A DNA stretch of 27,142 nucleotides, from positions 1 through 27,142 of IMG/VR virus record IMGVR_UViG_3300027782_000304; one strand, written 5' to 3'. The position numbers were made by a program, and so were the translations under genes. A model generated the notes under the pieces. The model saw nothing but the letters and a program-made list of their open reading frames with translations, did not search any database and was not told the origin of the DNA. Origin of the DNA: a virus. Positions 1 to 24,500 of this stretch are shown one piece after another (position 1 is the stretch's first letter; every line of letters starts with the position of its first letter).

Positions 1-555
1 GGTAGGGCGCACAAACGCAAACTCATCTGCGTATAGTAACGAAATACTCATACCTCGACCAGTGTTTTCTGTTGTAGTAGCACTCACTATGCGACTACCA
101 TTGTCAAAGTCTATACTACCCTTGTTGTAACTCACAGCACCTGCACGTATGTAGTCCGGCACGCTTTCATAAGCATAGCGTATACGTTGCATGATTTCTT
201 GTGAGCCTGTGTATTTGTGTGCGGCAATCAGGATAGTGCTGTCGGGAACGAACATAGCATACCAGAGTAGATATCCAGCAGCACTTGTTGATTTACCTGT
301 TTGCCGAGGCATCAATGAGATGCTGAATCGGTAGTTATGGTATGAATGGATTAGACGTTTTTGATATTCAAATGGTTTATACAGCATACGTCCTTGGACA
401 GGATGCTGTATATAGAAGTAGTTACTCATAAAGTACTCAGGACCCGTAACAGGATCTGCGCACTTTGCGAATTCTCTTAATTGTTCTTCTGTAAAAGATT
501 CCTTGGTATGAGGTTTCTTTACTAGAACGCTGTCTGTACCTTTAGCTGTTGCCAT
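1..555 (-). CDS. gp17: Large terminase subunit (T4 gp17-like), C-terminal part outside window
   Basis: ATPase/nuclease motor that packages DNA into the prohead through the portal. Only the first 185 residues are present; the frame is open to base 1. A Walker A loop MPRQTGKST lies at about residues 82-91, preceded by an aromatic segment with FEYQKRLI, as in T4 gp17. A Walker B-type strand SLLYADEFAF lies near residues 169-179, with D-E as the expected acidic pair. The nuclease domain lies beyond the left edge. The ATG at 555 precedes an N-terminal stretch of normal length for the family; no strong ribosome-binding site is visible before it. It is the last minus-strand gene of the window. Unlike T4, where 16 and 17 are adjacent, here the probable small terminase lies about 5.7 kb upstream. 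Confidence 0.93.
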   Translation of the reverse strand, partial: MATAKGTDSVLVKKPHTKESFTEEQLREFAKCADPVTGPEYFMSNYFYIQHPVQGRMLYKPFEYQKRLIHSYHNYRFSISLMPRQTGKSTSAAGYLLWYAMFVPDSTILIAAHKYTGSQEIMQRIRYAYESVPDYIRAGAVSYNKGSIDFDNGSRIVSATTTENTGRGMSISLLYADEFAFVRPT

Positions 556-591: not shown

Positions 592-819
592 TTACCAGGG
601 TTTTTCGCCTGTCATGTATGGTAAACTAAACCATAATTTAAACCATTCTGGAGTACCCGGCTGGATATTGTGTGTGTTTTGATACTGTATTTTTTCGTTG
701 GCAGTTACGCTCATATTACTGCCTTCTGTGCTGACTGACCCTTCACCTTTATATTCCTGTAGGCGGCCAATATTTTGTGTGATGCCAGCTAGTTGTTTGA
801 TTTGATCTAGATCGTCCAT
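592..819 (-). CDS. Small conserved phage protein with LAGI-type motif
   Basis: 75 residues, unknown function. The N-terminus reads DLDQIKQLAGIT, which resembles ELDEIARLAGLT inside the 1117-residue protein encoded at 2264-5617. The C-terminus is aromatic and proline-rich (PGTPEWFKLWFSLPYMTGEKPW) and ends just upstream of the terminase gene. The shared motif suggests it belongs to the same group of possible internal head proteins; that is inference. A role in packaging is conceivable from its position but not shown by any motif. The gene starts 2 nt after the stop of the upstream gene, so it is translated within the same message. Confidence 0.75.
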   Translation of the reverse strand: MDDLDQIKQLAGITQNIGRLQEYKGEGSVSTEGSNMSVTANEKIQYQNTHNIQPGTPEWFKLWFSLPYMTGEKPW

Positions 820-821
820 GA

Positions 822-1199
822 TTATGATTTACGTTTGATTGGTCCAGTGCGGCCGACTGGGCTGACTTTGTTCACTGAATCTAGTTCCATGCTTCGATGA
901 TCAGGAATGCTGTGGCTGACTTCGCTGTCAACTGTGTTAAATGCACTCTGCATCATTATGTGCTCTTCTTCAGTATATGGGCGTGCAATATTGTGTTTGC
1001 CAAACCACGATTGTTCTGGAACATCTACTGCTTTCGTAGAAACACCATCTGATTTAGCTGCAGCCATCATTATTCGATTAAGATTATAGATACGATCGAT
1101 ACCATCATCTCGCCAAGACCATTCACCCTTGGACGCATATTCAGATCGTTTAGGAATTTTTCCTATTTTACCTTCAATGATTATTTCATTTATTTTCAT
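822..1199 (-). CDS. Putative capsid-targeted small protein (MKINEIIIEG leader)
   Basis: 125 residues, unknown function. The first ten residues MKINEIIIEG resemble the T4 capsid-targeting sequence MKTYQEFIAEA of internal proteins, including a fit to the prohead-protease rule (L/I)-x-E followed by G, A or S, here I-I-E9/G10. The mature part is charged, with WSWRDDGIDRIYNLNRIM and a basic C-terminus GPIKRKS, and has no membrane segment. It lies between two other small genes with 2-3 nt spacings. What is seen is the leader similarity; packaging into the head and cleavage are inferred. Confidence 0.8.
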   Translation of the reverse strand: MKINEIIIEGKIGKIPKRSEYASKGEWSWRDDGIDRIYNLNRIMMAAAKSDGVSTKAVDVPEQSWFGKHNIARPYTEEEHIMMQSAFNTVDSEVSHSIPDHRSMELDSVNKVSPVGRTGPIKRKS

Positions 1200-1202
1200 A
1201 TA

Positions 1203-1658
1203 TTACCACTTGCGACATGACCAGTAGCGTGCTTTGGTACGAGGTCCAGGATTAGCACAATTGTGACGTGCTCTAAAACTTTTACGTCTTGCTGGAATAT
1301 ATTTCTTAATACGCATGTTGGGATCACCAAAGTTTACTTTTTTGATGTTGCCAGTCTTAGGATCCTTAACATAAACCTTAAACTTCTTAACATCGCCACG
1401 CATAGGCTTACCAAGAGGTACTTTACGGCCATGATACTCTGCTTCATCCAACTGCTGATCTTCGTTATACCACATTTCACCATATGCTTCGTAAAATTCA
1501 TCTCCCTCGTAGGTTTCTTCGATGGGCACGCAGTTATTTACACGTACACCACCTTTGACTTTGGTCTTGGGATTACCAATCTTTTTACCTTTCCAACACT
1601 TAGGATCTAAGCGTTGACTGGTTGCTTTTGCTTCAGTAATGATCTCAATGATTTTCAT
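1203..1658 (-). CDS. Basic Cys-containing protein with capsid-targeting-like leader
   Basis: 151 residues. The N-terminus MKIIEIITEAK closely matches the leader of the next gene and fits a T4-type prohead-protease site (I-T-E9/A10). Two modules follow that I recognise from uncharacterised proteins of aquatic T4-like phages: LDPKCWKGKK...GGVRVNNCVP at about residues 17-44, and a basic C-terminal module beginning GRKVPLGKPMRGDVKKFKVY at about 77 and ending TKARYWSCRKW. Cysteines occur as CWKG, NNC, HNC and WSC and could bind a metal or form a small fold. The C-terminal 40 residues are very rich in Arg and Lys, which would suit contact with packaged DNA, but no function is established. The start is 1 nt after the upstream stop. 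Confidence 0.83.
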   Translation of the reverse strand: MKIIEIITEAKATSQRLDPKCWKGKKIGNPKTKVKGGVRVNNCVPIEETYEGDEFYEAYGEMWYNEDQQLDEAEYHGRKVPLGKPMRGDVKKFKVYVKDPKTGNIKKVNFGDPNMRIKKYIPARRKSFRARHNCANPGPRTKARYWSCRKW

Positions 1659-1659
1659 T

Positions 1660-2262
1660 TTATACCGACCAAAATTGTTTTAGATGTGTTAGAGTTGCGT
1701 CTATATCAGCATCAGGATTAAACTCACCGTCTTCATCGTGAAACGCTGCTTCTGCTTGCTTAAAGGCATTATTTCTAGCATCAAAAGTTCTGCTGTCAAT
1801 CATCTCATCATCATAGTCTGCTCTTAGAGCATCATCTGTAAAATCCATAGCCCAAACTACTTCATCGAGATTTTTAGGTCCTGATACTAGTATGCGTCTT
1901 AGCTTTTTATTTGTAAGATGATCAAATGTCTGTGATTCATATAAATCGTCTTCGTCTTCATCACGATCGTTTAGGATACTGCGTAGGCTAGGAATACTAC
2001 CTGGTTGGCGGCGATCGCTTAACCAGCTTTCTAAGTGTGGCTCTAAGTAACTACGTATCTGACCTGCAAATGGACCTGGAACTTCACGACCATAGCGTGC
2101 TAGGTTGTTAGCAATACCAACAGCATGTCGCAATGTTTCGTCTAGTTCATCTAGCATGTCGCTGATCTGAGCTAGGTCAACAGCTTCTTCCTGGATAGGT
2201 TGCCCTGCGGCAATAGCATCAAGTCTGTCAATGTATTCTTTTAATAGGTCTTTGCTACTCAT
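1660..2262 (-). CDS. Acidic helical protein of unknown function
   Basis: 200 residues, not recognised. The N-terminal 50 residues look helical and are acidic (LKEYIDRLDAIAAGQ, then DMLDELDETLRHAVGIANNL). A strongly acidic linker DRDEDEDDLYE lies near 98-110, and the C-terminal part is also acidic. I-Q-E appears near residue 23 as a possible T4-type prohead-protease site. No membrane segment or catalytic motif is seen. The start is preceded by AAGG, and the gene begins 1 nt after the stop of the 1117-residue protein. Acidic, helical composition would suit a scaffold or prohead-core component, but that is inference from composition and neighbours only. Confidence 0.8.
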   Translation of the reverse strand: MSSKDLLKEYIDRLDAIAAGQPIQEEAVDLAQISDMLDELDETLRHAVGIANNLARYGREVPGPFAGQIRSYLEPHLESWLSDRRQPGSIPSLRSILNDRDEDEDDLYESQTFDHLTNKKLRRILVSGPKNLDEVVWAMDFTDDALRADYDDEMIDSRTFDARNNAFKQAEAAFHDEDGEFNPDADIDATLTHLKQFWSV

Positions 2263-2263
2263 A

Positions 2264-5200
2264 TTATACCTTAATGTCGTCGATCATTGATTGATAATCG
2301 TTCCATAACATATTTTGGATAGCTTCCTTAACTGCCATTGGATTGTCGCCTGGGTATTCTTTTTTATACTGACGTTTAGCACGATTTAAATCAGCTCCAG
2401 CTGGGATCGCAGCATCTGTTCCTGCCACTTCTTCACGAGGTGTGTTTGTGTATTCTATCTCACGTTCTTTAGGGCTATCTTCTTCAAGTGATTCGCAACC
2501 ACAAGGAGCAGACCCACATGTACCACATGATTGTTCTGCTGGTTGTGCCTGTATTGCAACCACTGGCATACCACTTAACTTACGGATTAGATTAACTACA
2601 TCTTCTTCACCATTGGCTGATACATTAACGTTAATATCTTCTTTTACTGTATATCGTTTACCGTCCACTTCAAACTCCTTTTCGCCTGCGGCTTTTGCAG
2701 CTGCTAGAGCGCCTGAAAATTCATTACCTTCGCCTACTTCAGCTTCACCAACTAATACTTCATCTTCAACATCTTTGATAGGAGTAGTATCAACACCTGC
2801 AGCTGCTAAGAACATTTCCTTTTTAAATCTTGGATTTTGTTGCTTGAATATATCTGCGTGGTACATGGCCAATTCTGTTCTTTTTGCCATATCTGGAATA
2901 GATTTAAGTAAGTCTGCTACCATGCGGAAGTCTTTACGTGTTGCGGCTTCATTTAATTCTTCTTCGCTACAGCCCATGCCTTCGTCCATGGCTTTTTCAT
3001 CTTCACAACAGCAAGGATCAGCATTGCATTTTGGGCAACCTGCATAGGTTAATGGGCTTGCTGAGTCACCTGGAACCTTTGAATCGTAGTTTTCACGTGT
3101 TAAACCGGCTAGTCTGGCAATTTCATCTAATTCTTGTACAGCATCTACAGTTGGTTGTTCACTGACAAATGCGTTCATTGGTGCACCACATTCCATGGCT
3201 TCTTTTTCTTTGCTGGCACAGAAGTGACCATATGATGTAGCACAGTCGCTTAGGAAATCTTCATCGTAGTGTACTAACCAACGAGCTGCCTTTGGTGTTA
3301 GTTTCATTTCAATCAGTTCGTCATACACTGCTTTAACAAACGCTTCTGAATTTGCATCTAAGTGTGGTTGTTCATCACAAAGAACTCTACCAATTGTTTC
3401 ATATGTGTATTCACTGCTTTCTGCGTTACGGCTTTCTGCTAGTTTGTGTCCTCTAATAGCAGCAACTTCTTTGCCTTTAAAACCATGAGGTTTGGCTACT
3501 TTGTTCCAATCTGCCTTAGTAAAATCTTTAGCAGACTTGTAGCCTTTCTTATCAGCGATACTAGTCAAATCTTTTGTTACTTTATCGGCGGCTGAAGGTC
3601 GACCTTCTTCAACTTGACCTTTGTTATGTGCTTTCCATGTAGTAGCATAGGCAATTGCTTTATCTTTACCAGATAAATGACCATCTTTGCTTAAAGATTT
3701 TTTAATGCCTTTAACCATACGTTCAGCTTTAGCACCTGGAGGCGCTACTTCATCTAAATCATCTTTATCTTCGTCATCTTTTTGTGCTGATCCACCATAA
3801 GCTCGACCTTTAACAAAACGTGAGGCTGACTTATAGTCATCATCCTTTTCAGCACGTTCATCTTCTTGTTTGTCTTTAAGTGCTTGTAGACGTTTACGTT
3901 TAGCAACTGCATCAGAATCAACTTCTGCTGGCTCGTGTTTTTTAGCATCTTTGGCCGCTTGCTTCATTGGCTCATCAGTGTCGCCATCTTTGTCAAGATC
4001 TAAGAAGTCTGGTTTAGCAGCTTCACCTAATTTCTTACCATTGGCAGCGGCTTTTTGGAATGCTTTCTTACCGTATTTTTTACGACCAATTGCGGCTGCA
4101 ACGGCTTCTGGGTTTTCAGCACTGCCACCTTTCTTAATTGCGGCTACTGTTTTTTTAAAGCCCATGTATTTTTCCATCAGGCTTTCTGCTACTTGTTCTA
4201 AGTTTTTCATACTTGGGTTTCCTAGGTTTTCTTCTAAATCTGTTCCACGTGATCCTTGCGGCAATTCAAAACTAAAGCCTGACGGCTTTTGTTGTGCTGT
4301 ATCCGTAGCAAACATGTCTAACGTTTGACCTTTTTTCATTGGTGGTTTTTTTGTCTGTGGTCTGTTAACGTTAGCGATGTAGGCCAATAATTGATCTGCA
4401 TCAGCCAAAGTGTAGTTAAAAAAGTTATCTTTGTCTTTAGACGTTATCACACGTTTTGTCAATGATTGTAGTAGTTTGACCACGTTAGCTAAAGATAAAT
4501 TCAATGTGCGGCCATTGGCAAAATCAAGTTTCACTGCTGGTGGTGGTGGATTTCTCCATTCTGCAGGTGCTTCACCCGGATATTTCAAAGCAGCTTGGTA
4601 TTGTGTATGATCTGCCATGAAATTTGCTATTTTCATAGCATTTTTTTGTCCATCTCCAGTCACTGGTTCTGTACTATCTCCGTCAACCTCTTGAATGCTT
4701 TCGGCAGCCTGTCTAAATTGTTGTGGGATCACTTTTGTAAGTTTAGAAAAATCAACATCAGTTACGTTGTCTGATTGTTTGGCTGGTTGTACTGCCTGCG
4801 GTGTTGATTGAGATGTTGCTTGTGGAGCTGTAGTAATTTGTTTTACCGTAGATTGCAATCGATTTGGTTCTTGTGCTACTGTGTTTGTTGCTGCATTTGT
4901 TTTAGATTTACTTACAGCCGGTGTAACTGCCTGCGCTGGTGCTGGCGCTTTTGTTGGGAAATTATAAATGTTATTGGCTTCTGGTTCTGTTTTTGATGCC
5001 GCAGGTTGGGAAGCTTTTTGTGTTTTTATTTCTGGATCTGCTATCTGCTGTATTGGAGCAGTTGGATCTGCGGCTATTGCGGCTTTGGCAGCATCAGTAT
5101 CTTTTTCAATTTGTTGTGCTGCTTGTGCAGTATAATGATCTTGTGCTGTAAGCTGGCCCGATGCTACTTTAGCATTTAACTTTTTAAATCTGTCATTCAT

Positions 5201-5617
5201 CTGATCTGTTACTGCTTGTGCTTTTTTAATCAGCATGCGATCTTCTTCTTCTGCGGCTTTTGCACGTTCTAGTTCTTCATCTTGTTTAGCAATATGATAA
5301 ACCATAGCTTCTAAATCATTTTTGGCACCTGGACGACTAAATCTCGCCTTGGTCAACAGTTGATTGATAGTTGCATCTGCACTGGTAATGTCCCCTGCAT
5401 CAGATTGTTTAATTTTTTCTGCTGATTTTCTTTTCTTTTTTTCAGCAACAATATTTTCGTTAAATGCTGCGTATTTTTTCTCAAGACCAGTAACTGCTTC
5501 CATGATATCACCGCGAGGATCTACGCTTTCGTAGACAGGCTCAGCAGTTGATACAGGATTCTCTTTAGGCACAAGCCCATTGAGTTTTCCTAAGATATCA
5601 TAGATATTGTTGCTCAT
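2264..5617 (-). CDS. 1117-residue multimodular mosaic protein, putative internal head polyprotein
   Basis: Very large protein built of short modules joined by acidic or low-complexity linkers. The first ~60 residues resemble N-termini of other phage core-type proteins. About 170-290 is rich in Ala, Gln, Pro and Thr. A Lys/Ala-rich helical module KYMGFKKTVAAIKKG follows at about 469-532. An EF-hand-like loop DLDKDGDTDEP lies near 538-548 but lacks the usual Glu at position 12. A PPGAKAERMVKGIKK module spans about 625-670. A Cys-rich segment CPKCNADPCCCEDE is near 857, TRKDFRMVADLL is at about 893-942, a VSANGEEDVVNLIRKLSG module is near 994-1015, and CGTCGSAPCGC is near 1027. Several modules are familiar from uncharacterised aquatic T4-like phage proteins. 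E532, E623, E671, E728, E890, E958 and E963 each follow (L/V)-x and lie at or near module borders, as T4 prohead protease would require. AAGGA precedes the ATG. Function is unknown. Confidence 0.88.
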   Translation of the reverse strand: MSNNIYDILGKLNGLVPKENPVSTAEPVYESVDPRGDIMEAVTGLEKKYAAFNENIVAEKKKRKSAEKIKQSDAGDITSADATINQLLTKARFSRPGAKNDLEAMVYHIAKQDEELERAKAAEEEDRMLIKKAQAVTDQMNDRFKKLNAKVASGQLTAQDHYTAQAAQQIEKDTDAAKAAIAADPTAPIQQIADPEIKTQKASQPAASKTEPEANNIYNFPTKAPAPAQAVTPAVSKSKTNAATNTVAQEPNRLQSTVKQITTAPQATSQSTPQAVQPAKQSDNVTDVDFSKLTKVIPQQFRQAAESIQEVDGDSTEPVTGDGQKNAMKIANFMADHTQYQAALKYPGEAPAEWRNPPPPAVKLDFANGRTLNLSLANVVKLLQSLTKRVITSKDKDNFFNYTLADADQLLAYIANVNRPQTKKPPMKKGQTLDMFATDTAQQKPSGFSFELPQGSRGTDLEENLGNPSMKNLEQVAESLMEKYMGFKKTVAAIKKGGSAENPEAVAAAIGRKKYGKKAFQKAAANGKKLGEAAKPDFLDLDKDGDTDEPMKQAAKDAKKHEPAEVDSDAVAKRKRLQALKDKQEDERAEKDDDYKSASRFVKGRAYGGSAQKDDEDKDDLDEVAPPGAKAERMVKGIKKSLSKDGHLSGKDKAIAYATTWKAHNKGQVEEGRPSAADKVTKDLTSIADKKGYKSAKDFTKADWNKVAKPHGFKGKEVAAIRGHKLAESRNAESSEYTYETIGRVLCDEQPHLDANSEAFVKAVYDELIEMKLTPKAARWLVHYDEDFLSDCATSYGHFCASKEKEAMECGAPMNAFVSEQPTVDAVQELDEIARLAGLTRENYDSKVPGDSASPLTYAGCPKCNADPCCCEDEKAMDEGMGCSEEELNEAATRKDFRMVADLLKSIPDMAKRTELAMYHADIFKQQNPRFKKEMFLAAAGVDTTPIKDVEDEVLVGEAEVGEGNEFSGALAAAKAAGEKEFEVDGKRYTVKEDINVNVSANGEEDVVNLIRKLSGMPVVAIQAQPAEQSCGTCGSAPCGCESLEEDSPKEREIEYTNTPREEVAGTDAAIPAGADLNRAKRQYKKEYPGDNPMAVKEAIQNMLWNDYQSMIDDIKV

Positions 5618-5626
5618 TAATAGTCC

Positions 5627-6229
5627 TTATTTTGCTTTAGGTATTGTATTTTGATGACTACCTACTGGACTTAACTCGCCAGGTGCTACATCATTTAATG
5701 TTTTACCATCAGCAGACCCATTACCTTCAATTTTAACTTTAGGTGTTTTGTTTAATTCTTTAAGGATAGTTTCTGCACCAGCATAGGCTTTGCTTGCGGC
5801 TTTTTGATCTGCGTCAGCTGCTGGGTAAGGTTTTGTTAGTTCTGCATCACCTTGTTTGTATTCTTTAATTTCGCTTTCACCATCTATGTTCCAACGCCAA
5901 ATTTCTTCTGGATTATATTTAGGAATCACCACCACGTTAGCTGTAGGACAACCTAGGCGTTCAGCAACGATACTACGTAATTGTGCATCGTTTACTGGAT
6001 ATTTCAACACAGCATCCATGATATATACTTCACTGTTTGGAATATTAGGGAAGTCGATGTCGTTGGCTTTTATTAGTAAGCGTTTTGCTTCACTCACACT
6101 TTCTACAGCGTATTTTGCAAGACCAACTTTCAGATCATCTAATTTATCAGCTGGATTGCAGTTAGCAATTTTAATACGGAATTCATAAGTTTTTTGAACT
6201 TCTGAAAGGTATTTTAAAAAGTTTTTCAT
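5627..6229 (-). CDS. Conserved T4-like phage protein with MKNFLKYLSE leader
   Basis: 200 residues. The N-terminus MKNFLKYLSEVQKTYEF resembles the T4 capsid-targeting sequence, with L-S-E10/V11 as the candidate cleavage point. The core EFRIKIANC...ESVSEAKRL...VYIMDAVLKYPVNDAQLRSIVA...ANVVVI is a conserved alpha/beta domain that I recall from uncharacterised aquatic T4-like phage proteins. The C-terminal ~60 residues are polar and probably flexible. It lies 9 nt before the 1117-residue gene and has its own late promoter, GATAAATA at 6251-6258, 21 nt before the ATG, plus an AGGA ribosome-binding site. It therefore heads the late message for the putative internal-head cluster down to terminase. 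Confidence 0.86.
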   Translation of the reverse strand: MKNFLKYLSEVQKTYEFRIKIANCNPADKLDDLKVGLAKYAVESVSEAKRLLIKANDIDFPNIPNSEVYIMDAVLKYPVNDAQLRSIVAERLGCPTANVVVIPKYNPEEIWRWNIDGESEIKEYKQGDAELTKPYPAADADQKAASKAYAGAETILKELNKTPKVKIEGNGSADGKTLNDVAPGELSPVGSHQNTIPKAK

Positions 6230-6249: not shown

Positions 6250-6750
6250 TTATTTATCAGTTTTACCCAAGATCTGCTTGAGTAATTCGTTGCGATCCAG
6301 TACTACTGCGTGTCCGTCTTCTGCATCAATTATCTTATCGCCATCCGATTTGTTATTATCTTTGGCAATTTGTGCGTCTAATCGGGCCTTTTTCAGCTGT
6401 AAATCAACCATACGTAGCTTCTTATCCAGCTTGGCTTGCTTGGCTGTAATAGCATGTCCTAGCAGGGTGCCTGCTGTGGCTAGGATGTGTCCGCTGAAGC
6501 GTGCTTCAACGTTCATGCCTAGATCAATTAGGTCCTGGAATTTTTCTTTAGCAAGGTCGCTGAGATCATCTAGCTCTTTATCGCTAGTGTCTAGATCGTT
6601 TACATAGGGTAGTGCCGCATCAATCTTATCAATTGCAGTGTCTACTGCTTTGATGATTTCACGATTTTCTTCGATGGTACTGTTGGCTTCTTCTAAGGTT
6701 GTAGTGTCAGAAGGTGGTAGGTTAAATAGTTCTTCTAGTTTTTGTGTCAT
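6250..6750 (-). CDS. gp16: Probable small terminase subunit (T4 gp16-like)
   Basis: 166 residues, almost entirely helical and charged. The N-terminal acidic part carries repeated helices (EENREIIKAVDTAIDKIDAAL). The central segment VEARFSGHILATAGTLLGHA followed by KLDKKLRMVDLQLKKARLDAQ resembles the oligomerisation core of T4 gp16 and its aquatic relatives, which regulate the gp17 ATPase and recognise DNA for packaging. The identification is by general resemblance and composition, not by a diagnostic motif. It lies next to the head-completion gene gp4 and starts 11 nt after it. Another helical structural protein is the alternative. Confidence 0.6.
   Translation of the reverse strand: MTQKLEELFNLPPSDTTTLEEANSTIEENREIIKAVDTAIDKIDAALPYVNDLDTSDKELDDLSDLAKEKFQDLIDLGMNVEARFSGHILATAGTLLGHAITAKQAKLDKKLRMVDLQLKKARLDAQIAKDNNKSDGDKIIDAEDGHAVVLDRNELLKQILGKTDK
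6251..6258 (-). promoter_or_regulatory. Late promoter -10 element GATAAATA
   Basis: GATAAATA on the minus strand, 21 nt before the ATG of the 5627-6229 gene, matching the T4 late consensus TATAAATA and the spacing seen before gp13, gp14 and the tube-fold baseplate gene. It lies at the very end of the probable gp16 gene, so it separates packaging expression from the internal-head cluster. Confidence 0.72.
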
Positions 6751-6761
6751 AGTAGAAGTAT

Positions 6762-7193
6762 TTACCGCTTCTGATTTTTGAAGATATCGTATTCGGTAAC
6801 TACTCTAAAACGCATACCATTAGCACGAGCCCAACTATCTGCAGCAGCCCATTTGGCCATGTTAATTGCCACTGACAGTTTGTCACGATAACTACGAGCC
6901 GACTCCATAGTAGCTTCTTTGCTGGGTTTGATTTCTACTAATTCTGTGTGTTTGCGTTGGTTAGCATCTACATAGACTACTAGGAAATCTGGAACATATA
7001 TTGTCTGTTTGCCACTGACTGGATTATAGTAAGGAATTTTAACTCCTTCGCTAGCCCATGTTAACACCGCGGGATTATTGTCACAGAAGCTCATAAATGT
7101 AAATTCCCAACTGCTGCGATATGTAGGCAGGCGTTTGCCCATATATTTGTCAGAATTTTTAATTTGATATTTACCGCTGGCGTATTTAGACAT
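6762..7193 (-). CDS. gp4: Head completion protein gp4-like (nuclease fold)
   Basis: 143 residues, close to T4 gp4 (about 150). The order of motifs matches T4 gp4: N-terminal SGKYQIKNSDKYMGKRLPTYRSSWEF, then WASEGVKIPYYNP, a PDFLVVYVDANQRKHTELVEIKP segment, and C-terminal WAAADSWARANGMRFRVVTE. The PD...E-x-K spacing (P-D-F, then V-E-I-K) and the preceding Ser-Trp-Glu are typical of TnsA-like endonuclease folds. In T4, gp4 acts on filled heads before tail joining. All expected acidic/Lys positions look intact. It lies 2 nt after the upstream gene in the same minus-strand operon. Confidence 0.88.
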   Translation of the reverse strand: MSKYASGKYQIKNSDKYMGKRLPTYRSSWEFTFMSFCDNNPAVLTWASEGVKIPYYNPVSGKQTIYVPDFLVVYVDANQRKHTELVEIKPSKEATMESARSYRDKLSVAINMAKWAAADSWARANGMRFRVVTEYDIFKNQKR

Positions 7194-12830: not shown

Positions 12831-13181
12831 ATGCAATATCGTCCATTATGCAAAAGTTGTGGTAAAACACCCGCTGCTATTAATTATAAACGCAACGGAA
12901 CTACTCATTTTCGATCAAGGTGCACTAGTTGCCTGCGCAAAGATCGAAAACAGCGACTACAGCAACCAACCTGGATGTTAAAGGGATATAAAAAGAAACC
13001 ACACTGCGAAAAATGTGGTTTCAAAGCTAGATATAAAGAACAGTTGTTTGTCTACTATGTTGATGGTAATTTAAACAATGCGGATCAATTCAATTTAAAA
13101 ACCATCTGCGCTAATTGTCAATATGAAATTGCCCGAGAGGGTTTAGGATGGCGTCAAGGCGATCTCGTTCCGGATTATTGA
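12831..13181 (+). CDS. Zinc-ribbon protein with degenerate HNH motif
   Basis: 116 residues with four CxxC pairs: C7/C10, C31/C34, C59/C62 and C93/C96. The second half follows the plan of an HNH nuclease: CEKCGF, then FVYYVDGNLNNADQFNLKTICANCQ. Active HNH enzymes have D-H-(I/V)-D-G at the first catalytic site and often C-x-x-C-H at the end; here Y75-Y76 replaces D-H and Q97 replaces H. The zinc sites are kept while the metal/catalytic histidine is lost, so it is probably a DNA- or protein-binding relic and not a cutter. The N-terminal part is strongly basic. It is transcribed divergently from gp18, and its last 71 nt overlap the 3' end of the dNMP kinase gene on the other strand. Confidence 0.85.
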   Translation: MQYRPLCKSCGKTPAAINYKRNGTTHFRSRCTSCLRKDRKQRLQQPTWMLKGYKKKPHCEKCGFKARYKEQLFVYYVDGNLNNADQFNLKTICANCQYEIAREGLGWRQGDLVPDY

Positions 13182-13812
13182 TAATATCACGTTCAATCTG
13201 GTAATAAAGTTCTTCAATGGTGCCTTCGTTATTTAACACCATATCAAACTTAGATCCTACCCAAGCTGTTTCGCTAGCGTGGATGCCTAGTTGTTCTATG
13301 CGATTTTTGCTTAAGGTCCAGCTGGTATTTCTACTAGGACCTTGGTTCATGCTACTGGCATCTTCAAACCATTCGGGTTCGGATCCACGTTTAATACGTA
13401 CTACTCGGCCGCCTGCGTTGCGGATAGCTTTAATTTCATTGGGAAAGCGGCAGTCTGTAATAACGATGTCATCTGTTGACTTGCGTAGGCGATTTTCTAG
13501 GCTAGCTACCCACATGTCATCATTGAAACCTTTGCGGACTACTTCTGTGCCCCAATATTGTAGGACCCAGCGTGGAGTGATTTCCTGCCTTAGGCGATCG
13601 CTCCACCATTCATCACGAGTTTCACGCCAATCTCTTGATTGCTTACTACGGCCTTCTAGCATTTCACGATCCCACCCAAATACCTGCGCTACAGCATCTT
13701 TAAGGCTGTTAGCAAAGCTCTCTCGTTTATATCCATGAAAATTAACCAGATAATCAGCTACTGTGTCTTTACCAGATCCAATAAAGCCTACGATACCAAT
13801 GATTTTAGCCAT
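13111..13812 (-). CDS. gp1: Deoxynucleoside monophosphate kinase (T4 gene 1-like)
   Basis: 233 residues, close to the T4 enzyme (241). Transfers phosphate from ATP to dNMPs in the cytoplasm to feed phage DNA synthesis. P-loop GFIGSGKDT at 9-17, followed by VADYLVNFHGYKRESFANSLKDAVAQVFGW, which is typical of this family, then WVLQYWGTEVVRKGFNDDMWV at about 83-103 and DIVITDCRFPNE at about 114-126 (Asp-Cys-Arg-Phe-Pro-Asn-Glu is diagnostic). All key residues look intact. It is the only nucleotide-metabolism enzyme in the left half, set among structural genes. It has its own candidate sigma70 promoter inside a hairpin just upstream, and AGGGAG is the ribosome-binding site. Confidence 0.93.
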   Translation of the reverse strand: MAKIIGIVGFIGSGKDTVADYLVNFHGYKRESFANSLKDAVAQVFGWDREMLEGRSKQSRDWRETRDEWWSDRLRQEITPRWVLQYWGTEVVRKGFNDDMWVASLENRLRKSTDDIVITDCRFPNEIKAIRNAGGRVVRIKRGSEPEWFEDASSMNQGPSRNTSWTLSKNRIEQLGIHASETAWVGSKFDMVLNNEGTIEELYYQIERDIINNPERDRLDAILNPLGQFHIDN

Positions 13813-20786: not shown

Positions 20787-21518
20787 ATTTGCTTCGAGTA
20801 TAAAATCGTTGCGAGATATTGATTTTACATTCGGGCAGTATTTCCAAAGTTCTGGTAGGCTTTCTGTATTATGTTCGGTAACCCGAATAAAATCAATATC
20901 ATTATAAGTATCAAAAATTAATTTTTTATCGTTAAACCATTTATCATCTAAAACTAAACTTCTTTTAGCATCATACCCATTTGTATCGCTGTAAACGTTA
21001 TAATTAAAACCCGGAGTATCTTGTCCATCAAACCCCAACATGAATATTTTTTTATGTCCATCAAAACATGCCAAATACAAAGCTGTAGTTCCAGCATCAG
21101 TATAAGGATCATGTGGTATTAAATAAAACTTATTTGGATATTCCAATAGATGGATGGCATTAGTATAGACTATATTATCGATAACATATTGACTGTCGGC
21201 GATCTCTTTAACAATTTCAGGATGGCCTGACGCCACGAGAAAATCTGGAGTGAAATCTCTATAGAGAGCATTACAGCCATAAGTCTGTGTTGTTTCTGAT
21301 CCAAGCAACCCGCTGGGTGTTTTAAGATGTGAAAGTTCAAATGCTAATCTGCTAGGTCCATTACCTATTACAACTGCACGATTTGATATTTGATTGTTCG
21401 TTACAGCATTAGGGACATGCTCGACTGTGTCCTGCCATATACCATCAGTATAATTTCGATCTGTGACTATTTTTTCGCCTATGTAGTGGGTGCGATAGTG
21501 TTTACCAAGTTTTAACAT
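20781..21518 (-). CDS. MptE/DUF115-like Rossmann-fold protein, putative
   Basis: 245 residues. Recognisable elements are the glycine loop AVVIGNGPSR (about 48-57), YGCNALYRDFTPDFLVASGHPEIV at about 79-104, and TDAGTTALYLACFDGHKKIFMLGFDGQD at about 142-170. This order (IGNGPS, C-N-x-x-Y, D-x-L-V, T-x-x-L-A, hydrophobic-LG-hydrophobic-D) is that of DUF115/MptE-like proteins, which include 6-hydroxymethylpterin pyrophosphokinases of archaea and flagellin-glycosylation factors (Maf type). In a phage next to fibre genes, a role in sugar or virion modification is possible but unproven. No signal peptide. It follows the fibre gene by 9 nt on the same strand; GAGAA is the ribosome-binding site. Confidence 0.85.
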   Translation of the reverse strand: MLKLGKHYRTHYIGEKIVTDRNYTDGIWQDTVEHVPNAVTNNQISNRAVVIGNGPSRLAFELSHLKTPSGLLGSETTQTYGCNALYRDFTPDFLVASGHPEIVKEIADSQYVIDNIVYTNAIHLLEYPNKFYLIPHDPYTDAGTTALYLACFDGHKKIFMLGFDGQDTPGFNYNVYSDTNGYDAKRSLVLDDKWFNDKKLIFDTYNDIDFIRVTEHNTESLPELWKYCPNVKSISRNDFILEANL

Positions 21519-21527
21519 AGATTCTCA

Positions 21528-24500
21528 TTATTGAATGTAAGTTGTATATACTCTAACATTTGCATTGGTCATACCAGTGTTAGTAGTGTAATATAATTGA
21601 ACATTGCCTGCTAACACATTAGCTGATAAGATTCCCATAGTAGTACCATTATTTACTATGCCATAAGTGGTGATATAGGCATTGTTGTTTTGATCTGTGG
21701 TGACTAAGGCTTCATAACTTTCAAAATTTGTGCTGTCTTTTTTAGCACTAACGATATATTTGGCAGTAACGTAGCGTGTTTGTGTGAATGAGTCTACGGT
21801 GTATGGCGTAGCATTGGCAACAATATTAACTACTGTACCTCTAACAGCGATCTTAGTATCATTAACTAGGCTTAAAATACCTTCTGCACTTACTGATGTC
21901 CTGACTGTTGGTGCTGAGACACCGCCAGTGATATTAGCATAAATTCCTGATGAATCAGAAACATCAAAGACCATATATCCGTTGGCTGAAGCTAAACTTG
22001 TGATACTTGAGGTTGTAGTTAATTTACGTACATTAATTGCATCCCCAACTGCAGGTGCTTCTGTAAATGTTAGCGCAGTTCCGGTAATACCGTATGCTGT
22101 GACTGGGATCTGTAAGACGCCATTGATACTAACAATACAACTATTGGTTGAGGCAGTATTAGCTAAGGTAAATGTTGTTTGTACTCCGTTACCACTAAAT
22201 GATTCATCAGTGATAACTGTAGACTGCGCTGCACCTGGAACTGCCCAAATTGATCCATCGAACCATTCAAGATTGCTTAAACTGGTATTGTATCGCAACA
22301 TACCAGTAACATCAACGTTGCCAGCATTGCCAGGGCGTTGTGCTGTAGTACCAACCGGAACCAATAGTGAATCTGTACTGCGTACTGCAAATGTAGCACC
22401 AGGAATAGTTGCTGTATTACCTGCATAACTTGGGCCATTTATAACTGCTGTTTGTGTACCTGGATCAACGAAGAATACTAAACTAGATCCAGTACCTCTA
22501 ATTTTAAATTGTTCTGACGTTTGTAAATCGTTGATTACTGCACCATTGCCTACAAATAGGTTAGATCCTAGTGCTGTTGTACCAACTATACGAAGTGCAC
22601 CGTCTAATGAAGATCCTGATGTTCTTGCGCTCTCAACGCGAAGTCTACCTCTGACTGTAGTCAATGACCCAGTTCCAGAACTAAGATTTAATGTAGTTGC
22701 AGCACCAAACGCATTAACTGTTGTAGCTACAGTGTTAGCAAGATTAAATGATGATTGTCCAACAACTATGTCTGTAGCATATGGTAAGCTAAGTGTAGTA
22801 TTTCTGATAGCTGTGGTACCGACACTAGCACCAATTGACAGATTAGCACTTGTTAATAGTTGGGCCTGTGTCGCATTAGTGGTGAATATATTAACATTTG
22901 CCTGTGCTCCATCGATCGATGTAAGATTAGGTAACCATAAGTTAGCATTTTGAACTGCGGTAAATCCAGTAGCGGCACCTACTGTCAATGCTGTTGCTGC
23001 ACCACCAAAGTTTAATGTTGTAGCAGTTGTGTTATATAATGCCTGAGTCGATTGACTACCGACTACTGTTGGGTTATTAATTAATAGTGTGCCGCTAGTA
23101 GCACCAATCTCAATGTCAGTACCTGCTTTAAATGCATCAATTACTGTTGGTGTATTTAATAGTAAGAAATTGGTTTGTGCTGTATCTAAATAACTATCGT
23201 TAACAAAGATGTTACCATCTATACCTAAACCGCCAGATATAGTTAGTGCACCATTATTGTATGCTGTTGATTTTTTAACTGATTGGACAGTTAAATTGCC
23301 CTGTACAGTTGTAGTACCAGCATTGATACCTAATGTAATATTAGCTGCACGACCAAAGTTAATTGTATCAGCTACTGTATTATATAACGCCTGTGTTGTT
23401 TGCGTACCAACTACTGTTGGATTATTGATCGTTAATGTACCGCTAGTAGCACCAAATTCTAAATCAGTTGCACCTTTAAATGCATCAACTGTTGTTGGAG
23501 TGCCAGCGATCGTGTAAGAGCTAGCTGACGTTTGTAATTGACTACCACCGTGGAAAATGCTACCACCAATACCAGCACCACCAGCTACTATCAACGCACC
23601 AGTAGTTGAGCTTGAGCTATCTGTTGTAACTGTTAATGTTAAATTACCAGCTTTGATCGGATCCCACACAGTTCCTGCACCAAATACCACAGTATCAGTG
23701 CCTGGTTCTGCTGTATTACTAAAGAATTTCCAAGTGTTGTCTACGTTGTCACGAACCACCCCAGTGAATTGTGTAGAGTTGGCTAGTGTTGATAATCCAG
23801 GTCCAGTGAATTTTGAATAAAACCCAATGTCATAATTATATGGATATGTAGTGGCTGTTGATAAAAATAGCAAGGGATCTTCAACTGTGATAACGTTGGC
23901 TTGGACCCCAATGATATTAGCCGCATATAAGTTACCACCAACCCATAGGTCTTTGGCGATACTTGCACCACCTTGGATGATCACTGCTCCAGAGGCTGCA
24001 TTTGTTGAATTTGTTGGACTTGTAAATGTCGCGGCACCACCAACTGTGATCGTGTTGTTAAACTGTGCGGCACCTGCTGTGGTTATCGCACCTGCGATAT
24101 TAGCCGCACCACCAACGCTGATACCACCGTTTGGAACTACTATAGCACCAAGGCCTTGTGCTGTTGTTGCGATACTTGCATTAGCCCATAGATTATTACT
24201 TGCAGCTAATACTGTAAATGTACCAGTTGAAGCTGTAGCGTTACCAATTGGTGTTGCGTTAATTGCAGCAAATTGTGCTAGACCTGCAAGAACATTACCT
24301 GATAAGTTAATAGTTGCACCAGTAAATGCTGTGCCAGTGTTGCCAATAAAACCTGCAGCTACATTACCAACTGTTAGATCATTTGCTGTTAATAAGTCTG
24401 CCAATACAGTGCTTGCTACTACATTACCAGTAACGTTTAAACTTGCACCAGTAAATGCTGTGGCCGCATTACCAATAAAGCCAGCTGCTACATTACCAAA

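Follow-up and report, generated by a model that had tools for sequence, protein, structure and literature searches.

In bacteriophage T4, the internal proteins IPI, IPII, and IPIII have differing mature parts behind a common 10-residue leader, with aromatic residues at positions 4 and 7, a hydrophobic residue at position 8, and Glu at position 10 (MKTYQEFIAEA in IPII and IPIII and MKTFKEFTSTTTPVSTITEA in IPI; NC_000866). In the IPIII leader, residues 4 and 7 are the main determinants of targeting and residues 8 and 10 those of processing; Asp at position 10 stops processing but not targeting, and the gp21 protease cleaves after L/I-x-E (PMC9026906). The T4 vertex capsid protein gp24 also begins with a propeptide (MAKINELLRES; NC_000866). 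In SPN3US and phiKZ, several inner head proteins, the head ejection proteins, are cut by the prohead protease after a short x-E motif, and the diverged SPN3US proteins gp53 and gp54 have near-identical N termini (PMC5694885). In the literature searched, which included few subscription papers and is weak evidence in this respect, no capsid-targeting sequences (CTS) outside T4 and phiKZ/SPN3US-type phages were described for the group studied here.

The window analyzed here comprises 27,142 nt of IMGVR_UViG_3300027782_000304, a fragment from a freshwater T4-like phage. The initial annotation had proposed that genes upstream of the terminase gene encode a cluster of internal head proteins that are packed into the prohead, cleaved, and possibly ejected with the DNA. 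We consider it likely that proteins destined for the prohead interior, marked by a T4-type CTS, are encoded together in a loading bay that runs from the head-closure/small-terminase position to gp17, with the large protein p1117 as a companion substrate.

Leaders in the interval upstream of gp17

On the minus strand, the window reads from right to left as sheath- and tube-like genes (tail calls based on sequence and gene order), a gp4-like gene, p166, p200a, p1117, p200b, p151, p125, p75, and the start of gp17/TerL. None of gp21, gp22, and gp23 lies within this 27-kb fragment. The features of the interval and its borders are:

6762 to 7193, minus strand: gp4-like head closure/completion nuclease (PF08722, phrog_218)
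6250 to 6750, minus strand: p166, in the position of the gp16 small terminase (candidate by position)
5627 to 6229, minus strand: p200a, 200 aa; leader MKNFLKYLSE/V at 6229 to 6200 (residues 1 to 10)
2264 to 5617, minus strand: p1117, 1117 aa, modular and mostly low-complexity, no CTS
4174 to 4172, minus strand: predicted processing site LME482 of p1117
4024 to 4022, minus strand: predicted processing site LGE532 of p1117
3751 to 3749, minus strand: predicted processing site LDE623 of p1117
2950 to 2948, minus strand: predicted processing site LNE890 of p1117
1660 to 2262, minus strand: p200b, 200 aa, acidic, no CTS
1203 to 1658, minus strand: p151, 151 aa (phrog_7595); leader MKIIEIITE/A at 1658 to 1632
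Residues 17 to 45 of p151: CW..NCV module
1442 to 1206, minus strand: C-terminal domain of p151 (residues 73 to 151), putatively released by a second cut after LDE72
822 to 1199, minus strand: p125, 125 aa; leader MKINEIIIE/G at 1199 to 1173
592 to 819, minus strand: p75, 75 aa, N-terminal LAGI-type motif, no CTS
1 to 555, minus strand: N-terminal part of TerL/gp17, start at 555 (Pfam/PHROG profiles)

The three leaders singled out by the initial annotation, MKNFLKYLSEV, MKIIEIITEA, and MKINEIIIEG, are actual ORF starts, and a six-frame scan of the window in the T4 register (E10) and in a form one residue shorter (E9) matched p200a, p151, and p125 and zero other ORFs. p200a follows the T4 register: its F4, Y7, L8, and E10 are the residues to which T4 genetics gives targeting (4 and 7) and processing (8 and 10). 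p125 and p151 have E9, one residue short of that register. For random N termini of the window's composition, the two registers combined are expected at about 1e-4 per N terminus; an (L/I)xE triplet whose Glu is residue 9 or 10 is present in 1.2% of random sequences and in three of the six ORFs of the interval (p about 4e-5). At the codon level, the leaders differ by synonymous changes (8 peptides are encoded by 24 DNA forms, and 15 by 27), indicating that the constraint acts on the protein. As far as sequence can tell, p200a, p151, and p125 agree with T4-type CTS proteins in every feature open to testing. The proposed cluster stands in this form for these three proteins but not for p1117, p75, and p200b, which lack the leader and are tied to it via position, the LAG motif, or internal cleavage-type sites. 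The LAG(I/L) motif that had been noted in the 75-aa (DLDQIKQLAGI) and 1117-aa (ELDEIARLAGL) proteins is indeed common to both and is present in 44 of 53 p1117 homologs.

The genes described here, in contrast to the T4 ip loci, are flanked by the gp16 position and gp17, and the shorter MKINEIIxE register is used as well. Mature p200a, p151, and p125 gave no Pfam or PHROG match to T4 IP families. With the gp24 propeptide, MAKINELLRE/S, the p125 leader shares the KINE core, two hydrophobic residues, Glu, and a small residue, MKINEIIIE/G reading as the same leader minus one residue; gp24, however, is a vertex capsid protein unrelated to p125. In SPN3US and phiKZ, by contrast, the motif is A/S-x-E and propeptides mostly exceed 100 residues.

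Several features of the gene layout were observed alongside. p166 lacked profile support as gp16 small terminase (hhalign probability 5.6%), leaving position alone. p200b is 107 to 200 aa long in relatives, with about 108 aa in many of them (L006, L010, L012, L016, L019, and others) and about 200 aa elsewhere, including the window, the C-terminal half being lost or split off. Between p75 and TerL, L010, L011, L027, L030, L031, and L036 have an insertion hotspot with ORFs absent from the window, encoding proteins of 615 aa (radical-SAM-like by eye), 242 aa (homing-endonuclease-like by eye), and 240 to 247 aa. Farther along the window, a dNMP-kinase-like gene (T4 gp1 type by eye; 13111 to 13812, minus strand) is overlapped at its 3' end by a CxxC/HNH-like ORF (12831 to 13181, plus strand), and plus-strand ORFs near 12831 to 13812 break up the minus-strand structural block.

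Alignment of relatives bore out the leaders, with the F4/L8/E10 register of p200a and the p125 leader conserved. Among 23 aligned p200a proteins, M1, K2, F4, and L8 are invariant, E10 is present in at least 90%, and position 9 is free; residues 13 to 22, directly after the leader, are conserved as strongly as the leader. E10 is kept in 45 of 52 unique homologs and replaced by Asp or Gln in 7 (about 13%), and it is absent from the homologs in PA5oct (MKSFRDYYDAS) and Phosso (MKNFYEYLSSV), which keep F4 and the aromatic Y7. Because of these substitutions, the predicted cleavage of p200a is not universal. The Asp and Gln variants fit a CTS, since T4 IPIII with Asp at position 10 is targeted yet uncut (PMC9026906), and the loss of Glu with retention of F4 and Y7 in some p200a proteins fits the prediction from T4 genetics if p200a must be targeted but need not be cut. 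AlphaFold2 modeling on the p200a alignment gave a helix at residues 4 to 10 with low confidence (about 51) and a ferredoxin-like domain at residues 15 to 103 (block means mostly 80 to 92) followed by a disordered tail, the leader sitting outside the folded domain of the model. Foldseek matches of this fold to ribosomal S6 and PII were discarded as generic, and its viral matches had no names.

Leader distribution and virion proteins of relatives

p125 and p151 join unrelated mature parts to the common leader MKI(I/N)EIIxE. Two subfamilies of p125, about 28% identical overall, have nearly identical leaders, which are their best-conserved part, and p151 homologs retain the leader and the C-terminal domain with the N-terminal half swapped out. 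No confident structural model was obtained for p125 (pLDDT 46), tblastn against named phages gave no match for p125, its sister family, or p75, and a literature search for DUF6321 found nothing. A scan of IMG/VR for MKINEI(I/L/M/F)xE returned at least 83 matches with mature parts in at least 34 unrelated families; those among the matches listed include NMNAT-like, KWDG-motif nucleotidyltransferase-like, and kinase-like proteins, family names being taken from motifs judged by eye. One match resembles QueE, probably by coincidence. With the last position left free, Glu was found at position 9 in 53 of 72 MKINEI N termini (74%) and in the majority of members in 28 of 46 families; these matches overlap those of the first scan, and the two form one sample. 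Among the listed carriers longer than 75 kb, five of eight have both gp21 and gp23 matches above the family cutoffs. Judged by this distribution, the leader acts as a portable tag across unrelated proteins. As a separate observation, G002 (the contig of L034) has tandem ORFs at 21511 to 22158 and 22174 to 22629 (minus strand), present also in L069, that join the leaders MKINEILTEN and MKINEILVEA to unrelated mature parts; a KWDGAP-motif protein with LVEATG near its start adjoins them.

The protease required for such processing, which the initial annotation had placed outside the window, was found in relatives. Three longer genomes, G001 to G003, were reached via p200a (118, 114, and 117 kb), and a gp21-type protease (PF03420, Peptidase_S77; E 4e-28 and 7e-31) is encoded in the near-complete G001 and G003, the match in G002 being partial and at the contig end. 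All three have gp23, with HLME/TATSG, HLTE/NATAG, and HLVE/NATGG at the position of the T4 cleavage site FLTE/AEIGG; Leu and Glu are fixed and the middle residue varies. By sequence, the (L/I)xE specificity is predicted to be kept in the clade.

Mass spectrometry of virions by others supports a virion location in relatives, for the p200a homolog and for CTS proteins but not for p125 and p151. The p200a homolog of PA5oct, EST35_0202, is annotated as structural by ESI-MS/MS, as is EST35_0203, the product of the next gene, in the p1117 position. Gene order in PA5oct is the same as in the window: sheath, tube, two genes, gp4-like, one gene, the p200a homolog, one gene, and TerL. For the cyanophages S-CREM2 and S-SCSM1, we drew on the published reports (PMC10665884 and PMC9602691). 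The S-CREM2 virion table (PMC10665884) gives 52 of 218 proteins, and a strict leader motif matches 4 of the 218 proteins, all four in the virion set (Fisher p 0.003); gp136 and gp154 were seen before the motif was fixed, and just gp6 and gp14 are fully independent. The four virion proteins are:

gp6: SAM hydrolase, MKDFDSFLEE
gp14: APH/ChoK kinase, MKRFDAFLTE
gp154: NMNAT-like, MKNFSSFLTE(A)
gp136: MQTFSMFFSE, encoded between gp16 and gp17

A looser motif showed no virion enrichment in S-CREM2 (p 0.16). In S-SCSM1, the same fixed motif gave two matches, the virion NMNAT (MKSFLQFLKE) and SSCSM1_30, which is encoded between TerS and TerL and is not in the reported virion set; with one of the two already seen and the other not detected, S-SCSM1 was set aside as a formal enrichment. 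In the NMNAT-like family, all 22 distinct N termini (47 further loci and one S-CREM2-type relative) have E10 in the form MKxFxxFLxEA. These cyanophage enzymes have leaders of the p200a kind, but unlike the window proteins they are recognizable enzymes. The passages of the two reports used here leave open whether the enzymes are packaged or co-purified and make no mention of a targeting sequence. The predicted CTS favors packaging over co-purification.

Other S-CREM2 and S-SCSM1 virion proteins have features of interest in their own right. The Cas9-like gp12 of S-CREM2 (L163:7704-10313) has a CTS-like RFASFMAEAA about 20 residues past its annotated start, which may be misannotated, or the leader may be longer. 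S-CREM2 gp160 (L161:24643-25536) and S-SCSM1_97 (L162:33122-33307) copy the region after the predicted cleavage site of the major capsid protein (MCP), GFTGAAAPEGPVAGYDPLM compared with GFTGAAAPGGPNAGFDPVM in the MCP, possibly as a mimic lining the capsid.

Modules of p1117 and the internal site of p151

Homologs of p1117 are mosaics of about 460 to 1224 aa. The protein is acidic and lysine-rich, of low complexity and very variable length, has many hydrophobic-x-E sites, and gave no Pfam or PHROG family match. The raw (L/I)xE count in the p1117 of the window, 11 against 8.6 expected, is not above chance; the signal lies in the positions of the junctions. Four recurring modules start right after hydrophobic-x-E in 34 of 35 distinct upstream contexts, compared with a background of 3% per site. 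P3 at these junctions is Leu, Ile, Met, Val, or Phe (strictly Leu or Ile in 20 of 35), P2 is free, and the upstream sequence differs, so the pattern looks like protease specificity rather than shared upstream ancestry. p1117 has the appearance of a polyprotein that the protease of the tagged proteins would cut as well. We found no description of processed polyproteins in tailed-phage heads in the literature searched. The DGD module of p1117 occurs also in the S-SCSM1 virion protein SSCSM1_92 (VAKPDFLDLDKDGNKKEPMKKAA), and gp137 of S-CREM2, in the same gene slot as p1117, is listed with a mass spectrometry coverage of only 4.1%.

The C-terminal domain of p151 is a whole protein, starting with M-A(K/T)Y(Q/K)G, in the Pelagibacter phages HTVC026P, HTVC111P, and Aegir and in the Roseobacter phage CRP-901. 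In the fused form, (L/M)xE/(A/S/G)E(Y/F)xG, the same domain residues follow LDE, LTE, LEE, MME, and LDE in the window, C48C1, HTVC008M, Melnitz, and the Flavobacterium phage immuto. The predicted LDE/A cut in p151 would therefore yield an N terminus that is native to the stand-alone domain.

Head cargo, assembly core, or neck protein

The proposal of prohead packing and gp21-type cleavage is well supported, if indirectly, by the gp21 genes and LxE-containing gp23 sites of relatives, the portable leader, the F4/Y7/L8/E10 register, and the mass spectrometry of relatives; for p200a, its cleavage part is weakened by an E10 that is not universal. In the mechanism that we propose, the leader would fold as a short amphipathic helix, with a hydrophobic/aromatic face made up of positions 4 and 7 (3 and 6-7 where the leader is one residue shorter). 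This face would dock on a gp22-type core while the prohead assembles, and a gp21-type protease would cut after (L/I)xE, releasing the mature protein in the head before DNA packaging. Mature p125, p151, and p200a would stay in the head, and the leaderless p1117, with recombining modules between hydrophobic-x-E sites, would likely be cut into many pieces. By analogy with T4 and SPN3US, ejection into the host along with the DNA, the last part of the original proposal, is possible.

p1117, p200b, and the tagged proteins might instead form an enlarged assembly core that is cut up and leaves the head without a role in the host, as do gp22, gp67, and gp68 of T4. p1117 would suit such a scaffold in its acidic, lysine-rich, low-complexity composition, its variable length, and its many hydrophobic-x-E sites, which resemble the T4 core proteins with their acidic character, multiple (L/I)xE sites, and expected fragmentation; in T4, cleavage of the core proteins yields multiple fragments, most of which exit the head (PMC9026906), and the low coverage of S-CREM2 gp137 in the p1117 slot points the same way. 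Yet p1117 is made of recombining modules and its gene is not in the gp20-gp23 block: next to gp21, relatives encode gp22-like and gp67-like proteins separately, and G003 a gp68-like one as well. The tagged proteins of relatives include NMNAT-like and kinase-like families, odd for a pure scaffold, and the p151 domain stands alone in other phage types. We regard this reading as possible but doubtful. For p200a on its own, an uncleaved head-completion or neck protein, with a conserved N-terminal helix that docks on the portal or capsid rather than a CTS, would agree with the flanking gp4-like and terminase genes, the structural annotation of the PA5oct homolog, the exceptions at E10, and the conservation of residues 13 to 22. 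It seems unlikely, given that L8 is invariant, that 45 of the 52 variants keep E10, that the register equals the leaders of virion enzymes detected by mass spectrometry (such as MKNFSSFLTEA), and that the leader is predicted to lie outside the folded domain.

An AAA or AAG second codon and AT-rich codons are frequent in phage genes. The leaders could accordingly reflect nothing more than a preference for AT-rich, K/I/N-rich starts, which aid translation initiation, with Glu falling in place by chance, as in the QueE-like MKINEI match, whose start may be there for an unrelated reason. This is very improbable: residues are fixed despite synonymous variation, E9 recurs in 74% of MKINEI N termini across unrelated families, E10 is found in all 22 NMNAT-like leaders, and the chance rate for the two registers is about 1e-4.

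Compared with the T4 system, the head-loading interval predicted here is new in its location, its short register, its much wider cargo, and its polyprotein-like partner. A broader reading, to which we give nearly even chances, is that aquatic T4-like phages possess a general system of head cargo loading, in which a portable zip code of 9 to 10 residues, attached to dozens of unrelated proteins, and a bead-string polyprotein of the p1117 type would be served by the same prohead protease, with modules swappable at cut sites without harm to assembly. With a sequence rule for head-borne proteins, hypothetical proteins of abundant aquatic phages would in many cases become testable candidates for head cargo. 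The CTS offers a mechanism for the presence of NMNAT-like, kinase, and SAM-hydrolase proteins in cyanophage virion preparations, for which co-purification was left open, and the junction rule of p1117 suggests processed polyproteins within the heads of tailed phages.
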